NCBI RefSeq assembly: GCF_030160295.1
Contig: NZ_BSOB01000010.1
Coordinates: forward strand, 148,084 to 212,083
Source of the DNA: Dyella acidisoli
Lineage (GTDB): Bacteria > Pseudomonadota > Gammaproteobacteria > Xanthomonadales > Rhodanobacteraceae
Direction of reading: 5' to 3'
DNA: 64,000 bases
Shown: positions 25,293-26,925 of the stretch, one piece after another
How the letters are laid out: the number at the start of each line of letters is the position of its first letter
Numbering within the stretch: position 1 is the first letter of the stretch
The notes under the pieces: generated by a model
Databases searched by the model: none
The model's input: only the letters and a program-made list of their open reading frames with translations
What the model was told of the DNA's origin: nothing
Position numbers and translations under genes: made by a program

Positions 25293-26483
25293 TTACTTGG
25301 TGATCTTGGCGACGACGCCAGCGCCTACCGTACGGCCGCCTTCGCGAATCGCAAAGCGCAGACCTTCGCTCATCGCGATCGGGGCGATCAGCTGTACCGA
25401 GATCTTCACATTGTCGCCCGGCATCACCATCTCCGTGCCCTCTGGCAACTTGATCGCGCCGGTCACGTCCGTCGTACGGAAATAGAACTGCGGGCGGTAG
25501 TTGCTGAAGAACGGGGTATGACGGCCACCCTCTTCCTTCGACAGCACGTAGATCTCGCCTTCGAAATCCGTGTGCGGCGTGATCGAACCCGGCTTGGCCA
25601 GCACCTGACCGCGCTCCACGTCTTCACGCTTCGTGCCGCGCAGCAGCAGACCCACGTTGTCGCCCGCCTGACCCTGATCCAGCAGCTTGCGGAACATTTC
25701 CACGCCGGTCACCGTCGTCTTAACCGTCGGCTTCAAACCCACGATCTCAATTTCGTCACCGACCTTGATGATGCCCGTCTCCACGCGACCGGTTACCACC
25801 GTACCGCGGCCGGAGATCGAGAACACGTCTTCCACCGGCATCAGGAACGGCTTGTCCAGCACGCGCACCGGCTCAGGGATGTAGCTGTCCAGCGCGTCCA
25901 CCAGCGCAATGATCGCCGGCACGCCGATGTCCGACTGGTCGCCTTCCAGCGCCAGCTTGGCCGAACCCTTGATGATCGGGGTGTCGTCGCCCGGGAACTC
26001 GTACTTGGAGAGCAGCTCGCGCACTTCCATCTCCACGAGCTCCAGCAGCTCGGCGTCGTCCACCATGTCGGCCTTGTTCAGGAACACCACGATGTACGGC
26101 ACGCCCACCTGGCGGCTCAGCAGGATGTGTTCGCGCGTCTGCGGCATCGGGCCGTCCGCGGCCGAGCACACCAGGATCGCACCGTCCATCTGCGCCGCAC
26201 CCGTGATCATGTTCTTCACGTAGTCAGCATGGCCCGGGCAGTCCACGTGGGCGTAGTGGCGGTTCGGCGATTCGTATTCCACGTGGGCCGTGGAGATCGT
26301 GATACCGCGCGCCTTTTCTTCCGGCGCCGCGTCAATCGCGTCGTACGCCTTGAACTCACCGCCAAAACGCTCTGCACCAACCTTCGTCAGCGCCGCTGTC
26401 AGCGTCGTCTTGCCGTGGTCCACGTGACCGATCGTGCCCACGTTTACGTGTGGCTTGGTGCGTTCGAATTTACCCTTTGCCAT
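25293..26483 (-). CDS. tuf: Elongation factor Tu
   Basis: 396-aa GTPase that brings aminoacyl-tRNA to the ribosomal A site. The start [16 protein letters not shown] at 26483 is the family start. An in-frame codon nine bases upstream is rejected. GTP-binding motifs [17 protein letters not shown] and NKADMVDD are intact, and the C-terminal [17 protein letters not shown] is standard. Three tRNA genes precede it as in the tufB locus of E. coli, but rpsJ follows it as in the tufA locus. This may be a tuf-tuf recombination junction (see findings). Confidence 0.99.
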
Positions 26484-26569
26484 GAGCGCCAAATCCCGAT
26501 GGAGTCAATGAGTGAGTGATAAGGAAATCTAAACGAGCTGTCAGGCGATACCGCGGCAGCCGCGTGCGG

Positions 26570-26645
26570 TGGTGCTCATGACTGGAATCGAACCAGCGAC
26601 CTCTTCCTTACCAAGGAAGTGCTCTACCGACTGAGCTACATGAGC
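26570..26645 (-). tRNA. tRNA-Thr (GGU)
   Basis: A 76-nt cloverleaf including an encoded CCA. The acceptor GCTCATG pairs with CATGAGC, the D arm is AGCTCAGTCGGTAGAGC, the anticodon loop TTGGTAA gives anticodon GGU, and the T arm has GGTTCGATTCC. It is the tRNA closest to tuf, in the same transcription unit. Confidence 0.96.
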
Positions 26646-26670
26646 ACAAAAAACACAGCGACGAGATCAA

Positions 26671-26744
26671 TGGAGCGGGAGACGGGAATCGAACCCGCAC
26701 CATCAGCTTGGAAGGCTGAGGTTCTACCATTGAACTACTCCCGC
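26671..26744 (-). tRNA. tRNA-Gly (UCC)
   Basis: A 74-nt cloverleaf including an encoded CCA. The acceptor GCGGGAG pairs with CTCCCGC, the anticodon loop CTTCCAA gives UCC, and the T arm is GGTTCGATTCC. It is the middle tRNA of the Tyr-Gly-Thr-tuf unit. Confidence 0.96.
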
Positions 26745-26839
26745 CCTGCGCGGAACTCGTCTCTCGAACCGCATCAGCACATTCAACCGCTTTTGCGATC
26801 CGCCTTCCAGCCTGACCATGGTTACCCGTGATAATCGAC

Positions 26840-26925
26840 TGGTGGAGGGAGGTGGATTCGAACCACCGAAGGCGTGAGCCAGCAGATTTACAGTCTGCCC
26901 CCGTTGGCCGCTTGGGTATCCCTCC
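26840..26925 (-). tRNA. tRNA-Tyr (GUA)
   Basis: An 86-nt class II tRNA with a long variable arm and an encoded CCA. The acceptor GGAGGGA pairs with TCCCTCC, and the anticodon stem-loop GCAGA-CTGTAAA-TCTGC gives GUA. It is the first gene after the promoter at 26940-26968. Confidence 0.96.

Follow-up and report, generated by a model that had tools for sequence, protein, structure and literature searches.

The DNA analysed here, which we call the window, is a stretch of 64,000 nucleotides that occupies C10:148084-212083 of a draft genome of Dyella (Lysobacterales, Rhodanobacteraceae). The draft has 64 contigs with a total of 5.34 Mb and a completeness of 99.98%. On the minus strand of this window, three tRNA genes and one tuf gene run into rpsJ, and rplC comes after rpsJ. 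The features of the locus, in the direction of transcription, are as follows:

26940..26968, minus strand: promoter-like site upstream of tRNA-Tyr (motif scan; weak, close to chance)
26840..26925, minus strand: tRNA-Tyr(gta) (tRNA scan)
26671..26744, minus strand: tRNA-Gly(tcc) (tRNA scan)
26570..26645, minus strand: tRNA-Thr(ggt) (tRNA scan)
25293..26483, minus strand: tuf, encoding EF-Tu of 396 aa with an ATG start (EF-Tu family, over the cut-off)
25292..26484, no strand assigned: stretch identical to C33:15932-17124, 1,193 bases (exact match)
25259..25273, minus strand: terminator-like stem after tuf (motif scan; weak, close to chance)
25215..25243, minus strand: promoter-like site upstream of rpsJ (motif scan; weak, close to chance)
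24591..24902, minus strand: rpsJ, the first gene of the S10 operon (S10 family, over the cut-off)

The run of tRNA-Tyr, tRNA-Gly, tRNA-Thr and tuf into rpsJ had been noticed in an earlier sequence-only reading, and both the tRNA scan and the family cut-offs bore it out. That reading had also placed a terminator and a promoter in the 390 bases between tuf and rpsJ. One site of each kind was indeed found there, but both are weak, and the hits over positions 24500-27300 hardly rise above those in shuffled DNA (3 terminator-like hits versus 2.2 ± 1.6, and 2 promoter-like hits versus 0.9 ± 1.0). The tRNA scan of the whole window found no tRNA-Trp. As assembled, the single tuf gene connects the upstream flank of tufB with the downstream flank of tufA.

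Contig C33 and its tuf boundaries

A search of the genome located rpoB on one other contig, C33 (17,124 bases), which also carries secE, nusG and fusA and is bounded by tuf. The order on this contig is the end of a tuf gene, tRNA-Trp, secE, nusG, rplK, rplA, rplJ, rplL, rpoB, rpoC, rpsL, rpsG, fusA and tuf. A family search of the contigs found rpoB in a single copy, on C33 only. The tuf and rpoB genes of C33 exceed their family cut-offs, and for each of the other ten block genes one or more NCBIfam models of the same name were matched above their cut-off. The EF-Tu family search brought the count of full tuf genes to two, that of the window and C33:15933-17117, plus a C-terminal fragment (32 codons) at C33:2-97. 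Eight further family matches in the genome are weak, with E values no better than 3.6e-26, as we would expect of other translational GTPases. Identified block genes or tRNA fill 15,801 of the 17,124 bases of C33, with gaps of at most 318 bases; all of the identified genes belong to the block, and no replication or partition gene was seen among them.

Comparison of the two contigs revealed that tuf is one sequence of 1,193 bases that occurs twice. C33:15932-17124 matches window positions 26484-25292 base for base, and the identity stops where the downstream flanks diverge. The upstream flanks of the two copies are tRNA-Thr and fusA, the downstream flanks are tRNA-Trp and rpsJ, and the path taken in C10 leads from tRNA-Thr through tuf to rpsJ. 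These data confirm what the sequence-only reading had proposed: the window lacks the segment that lies between two tuf copies in direct orientation, and C33, bounded by tuf, is this segment.

The first 104 bases of C33 are identical to its last 104 bases. We compared 400 bases from each end of all 64 contigs, of which 95 of the 128 ends were readable and 33 were wholly or partly masked. Five dovetail overlaps of at least 15 bases were found among the readable ends, that of C33 with itself included, and each of them is exactly 104 bases long. An identical terminus of exactly 104 bases was shared by 25 pairs of ends, and 99-103 bases were shared by 12 further pairs. Because all five dovetails measure 104 bases and 54 of the 95 readable ends stand in an exact 104-base relation with another end, we conclude that adjacent nodes of the assembly graph overlap by 104 bases, a length that points to a de Bruijn assembler with k of about 105. 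C33 is a piece of this graph that returns to the node from which it departed. K-mers of either tuf boundary were found on no other readable contig end (95 readable of 128). As these ends bear no further tuf boundary, and leaving masked ends aside, the graph can be read in two ways, with the block either between the two tuf copies or as a free circle.

The missing segment is thus bounded on either side by an identical repeat of 1,193 bases, longer than the assembler's k, and the segment itself exists as a separate contig that closes on the repeat. We attribute the joint in the window to a collapsed repeat in the draft assembly (probability about 0.97), and the run from the tRNA genes through tuf into rpsJ is almost certainly an assembly error and not a genuine chromosomal feature. 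A merging of the repeats by the assembler was one of two explanations that the sequence-only reading had offered, and it is strongly supported by the self-overlap of C33, which has the length of the node overlap. Reads or read pairs would have been too short to span the 1.2-kb tuf repeat, and a de Bruijn assembler would have taken the wrong pair of paths at the two identical copies, so that the left-over 17-kb block of essential genes would have ended as the separate, self-closing contig C33. The order in the cell would then be Tyr-Gly-Thr-tufB-Trp-secE-nusG-rplKAJL-rpoBC-rpsL-rpsG-fusA-tufA-rpsJ, as it is in congeners.

The tuf pair in relatives

We surveyed tuf in 100 genomes, including the one analysed here, with an E limit of 1e-120 and with pairs counted by hand. 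Two direct copies on one contig, 16.4-24.1 kb apart, were present in 48 genomes (47 at 16.4-17.6 kb, and G093 at 24.1 kb). A further 37 genomes gave no long tuf match, which is to be read as 'no long tuf' and not as 'no tuf' because the E limit hides short pieces, and the remaining 15 had a single tuf, fragments of it, or copies that were widely separated or split between two contigs. All 14 one-contig genomes carry a direct pair 16.5-24.1 kb apart; for three of them (G003, G009 and G035) the order of the genes was examined as well. The spacing in G093, itself a one-contig genome (G093:C1:2709194-2734515), is about 7 kb above that of the others.

In closed relatives, the segment missing from the window is present at this place. 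We read eight long loci, seven from Dyella genomes and one from G035, and in all eight the pieces tested stood in the expected order, tRNAs-tuf-Trp-secE-nusG ... rpoB-rpoC-rpsL-rpsG-fusA-tuf-rpsJ (the G003 piece begins after tRNA-Tyr, and G014 has N in one tuf and a short rpsL). The single direct row that the sequence-only reading had named for Xanthomonas and Xylella was thereby tested in relatives from the genus, the family and the order of the window. The rpsL of G014 (Dyella nitratireducens NZ_BMJA01000001.1, L018:4696-4971) measures 276 bases versus 375, with a 99-base in-frame gap that contains no N; this is possibly another assembly fault.

C33 was aligned to G009, a one-contig congener with 99% EF-Tu identity. 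C33:4-17124 gave a single alignment of 17,163 columns at 89.3% identity with 74 gap columns. The tRNA side of the window aligned before C33, up to the end of tufB, and the rpsJ side aligned after it, from tufA. The same end-to-end placement of C33 between the window flanks was obtained with G006 (89.5%, 84 gap columns). The tuf period is 17,030 bases in G009 versus 17,020 bases for C33 (17,124 - 104). Over the 1,188 bases compared, the two tuf copies are identical in G009, G003, G005 and G006, whereas G015 has 2 differences between them and G035 has 29; in G014 and G001 the comparison involves N or an incomplete copy. Identity within genomes and divergence between them fit the concerted evolution by gene conversion that is described for tuf duplicates in the available part of PMC6053082.

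We also looked for rpoB in 47 genomes, comprising 36 of the 37 without a long tuf match and 11 with a single, broken or contig-end tuf. G075 (no long tuf match), G046, G051, G070 and G077 lay outside this query, and G099, which has its tuf pair at the two ends of a 17.6-kb contig, is in both the pair count and the rpoB count. The contig bearing rpoB measured 15.0-17.6 kb in 30 genomes and had other sizes in 10, and no rpoB was found in seven. From their length and the place of rpoB, the 30 contigs would represent the block from tuf to tuf. Given that rpoB lies on short contigs and a long tuf is lacking in many drafts, their assembly appears to have ended at tuf; such a break seems to be usual in drafts of the order, and a run-through as in the window rarer, which is a point against the collapse reading.

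Two assemblies of the same order, G081 (L022, G081:C38) and G063 (L023, G063:C94), show the same tRNA-tuf-rpsJ joint as the window, and rpoB was not found in either. The most plausible reading is that both underwent the same collapse and that the left-over contig was then lost. Loss of this contig would explain the assemblies without rpoB (7 of the 47 drafts). In G011 (L027, G011:C6, positions 1-1282), a whole tuf is followed by one N, by a second occurrence of the initial 87 bases of the tuf query and then by fusA, an arrangement that resembles a scar left by scaffolding at this tuf repeat.

rpoBC records deposited as plasmids

The available part of one publication (PMC6403173) puts the number of proteobacterial strains with plasmid-borne rpoB and rpoC at just four. 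A plasmid record with rpoB exists for each of the strains named there. Two of these records resemble C33. The plasmid pSbal03 of Shewanella baltica OS155 (NC_009037.1, L250 1-16762) is a circle of 16,762 bases, and the plasmid of Pseudomonas chlororaphis PCL1606 (NZ_CP011111.1, L249 1-16587) is a circle of 16,587 bases; both are non-mobilizable and, like C33, consist of the block and one tuf (16.8 and 16.6 kb). Unlike C33, they were deposited as complete plasmids. A replication gene was neither annotated nor seen in either record. A tRNA search found tRNA-Trp in NZ_CP011111.1 and did not find it in NC_009037.1. Both records are probably the same tuf collapse.

The other two records are joined inside rRNA operons. 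That of Serratia liquefaciens (NC_021742.1, L252) has 44,107 bases and extends from murB to purH; at the joined record ends, an LSU truncated at model position 655 is followed by an SSU that starts at 1133. Its last 1.5 kb repeat its first 1.5 kb (777 + 466 columns, at 96.5 and 98.9%). The record of Salmonella Senftenberg (NZ_LN868946.1) has 141,119 bases and is joined inside the LSU, with positions 1-1157 meeting 973-2925 (pieces L253 1-1973 and L255 39906-41119), and its last 186 bases repeat its first 183 at 98.4%. These untrimmed end repeats are a sign of false circularisation. Judged from their records, all four published rpoBC plasmids look like repeat collapses or false circles. In PLSDB, rpoB matched 66 of 72,556 records, and among the best 60 of these 66 the only ones under 20 kb were those of S. 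baltica and P. chlororaphis. The collapse error can mislead, as what look like false circles have been counted in print as plasmid-borne rpoBC (PMC6403173, in the part available).

Matches to rpoB also occur in viral sequences. Viral contigs scanned with the RpoB of this genome yielded two loci, and 38 phage records have an rpoB-like match, including MT836236.1, a linear, unannotated record of 17,375 bases that is marked UNVERIFIED.

Alternatives and comparison with known systems

The other explanation in the sequence-only reading was a real tuf × tuf crossover that excised the block, with its genes kept elsewhere. In this case the cell would keep rpoBC, fusA and the other genes on a 17-kb circle. 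That C33 closes on itself, and that two similar circles have been deposited as plasmids, would agree with excision. However, C33 is filled by the block, with no replication gene seen, and it can be aligned from one end to the other with the chromosome of a congener; in content and length it matches the chromosomal block of the congeners. Its terminal overlap has the assembler's own 104 bases, which is hardly likely to be a chance match. Moreover, the only rpoB of the cell would not be inherited on a circle without a replicon, and a cell losing the circle would be expected to die. Excision is thus unsupported, and we consider it very unlikely; a replicating circle, whether plasmid or chromid, was rejected on the lack of a visible replication gene and on the overlap of the assembler's size. 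Recombination over the 1.2 kb of identity between the tuf copies might instead occur continually in culture and yield variants of the rpoBC-str block, as tandem duplications with deletion circles as by-products. A minority of molecules would then have the joints tRNA-tuf-rpsJ and fusA-tuf-Trp, and the block encoding RNA polymerase and EF-G would vary in copy number. Because short reads cannot span 1.2 kb of identity, they would hide any such mixture of forms, and we give this a slim chance.

The remaining alternatives take the joint to be real and ordinary, or place the block elsewhere on the chromosome. The sequence-only reading had allowed that tRNA-Tyr-Gly-Thr-tuf-rpsJ might be an old order in the group, and the joint does recur in G081 and G063. 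Yet these two assemblies, without rpoB, look like the same collapse; G061 and G072, of the genus of G081, have a normal tuf pair; and the relatives checked on this point have the full block between the tuf copies in all eight long loci. An old, ordinary order is therefore extremely unlikely and was rejected by the tuf survey and the gene order in relatives. A block at another chromosomal place would find a parallel in three relatives with two tuf loci apart, G046 of the family and G070 and G077 of the order. These keep a fusA-tuf-rpsJ joint, however, with tRNA-tuf-Trp in G046 and G070 and a second copy resolved as far as tRNA-Tyr, tRNA-Gly and tuf in G077, and none of the three has a tRNA-tuf-rpsJ joint. 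A block elsewhere would also need further contig ends at tuf. As no such tuf flank was present on the readable ends or in the genome search, an unrelated locus was rejected and has a vanishingly small probability.

Reading the joint as a repeat collapse in the draft removes a false rearrangement from the record and suggests a simple check: a short rpoBC contig with tuf at either end is the interval from tufB to tufA. Long, near-identical repeats are known to collapse in short-read assembly, with rRNA operons as the usual case (riboSeed, in the part available). Among the titles and beginnings of abstracts listed, we found no published description of such a collapse at tuf, which is a weak negative. 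The present case is like the known ones in that the repeat is longer than the reads, has two entries and two exits, was joined along the wrong path and left a piece that closes on itself. What sets it apart is the repeat itself, a 1.2-kb tuf pair, so that the left-over piece contains rpoBC and the str operon and corresponds exactly to the interval between tufB and tufA. The concerted evolution described for tuf duplicates (PMC6053082, as far as available) would account for copies that are identical within a genome and differ between species; it is a precondition of the collapse only and not the event at the junction. Finally, the cluster described in the available part of PMC8046335 matches in its order that of the Dyella congeners and the one we infer for this strain, whereas the window as assembled lacks, relative to that cluster, everything from tRNA-Trp to fusA plus one tuf.
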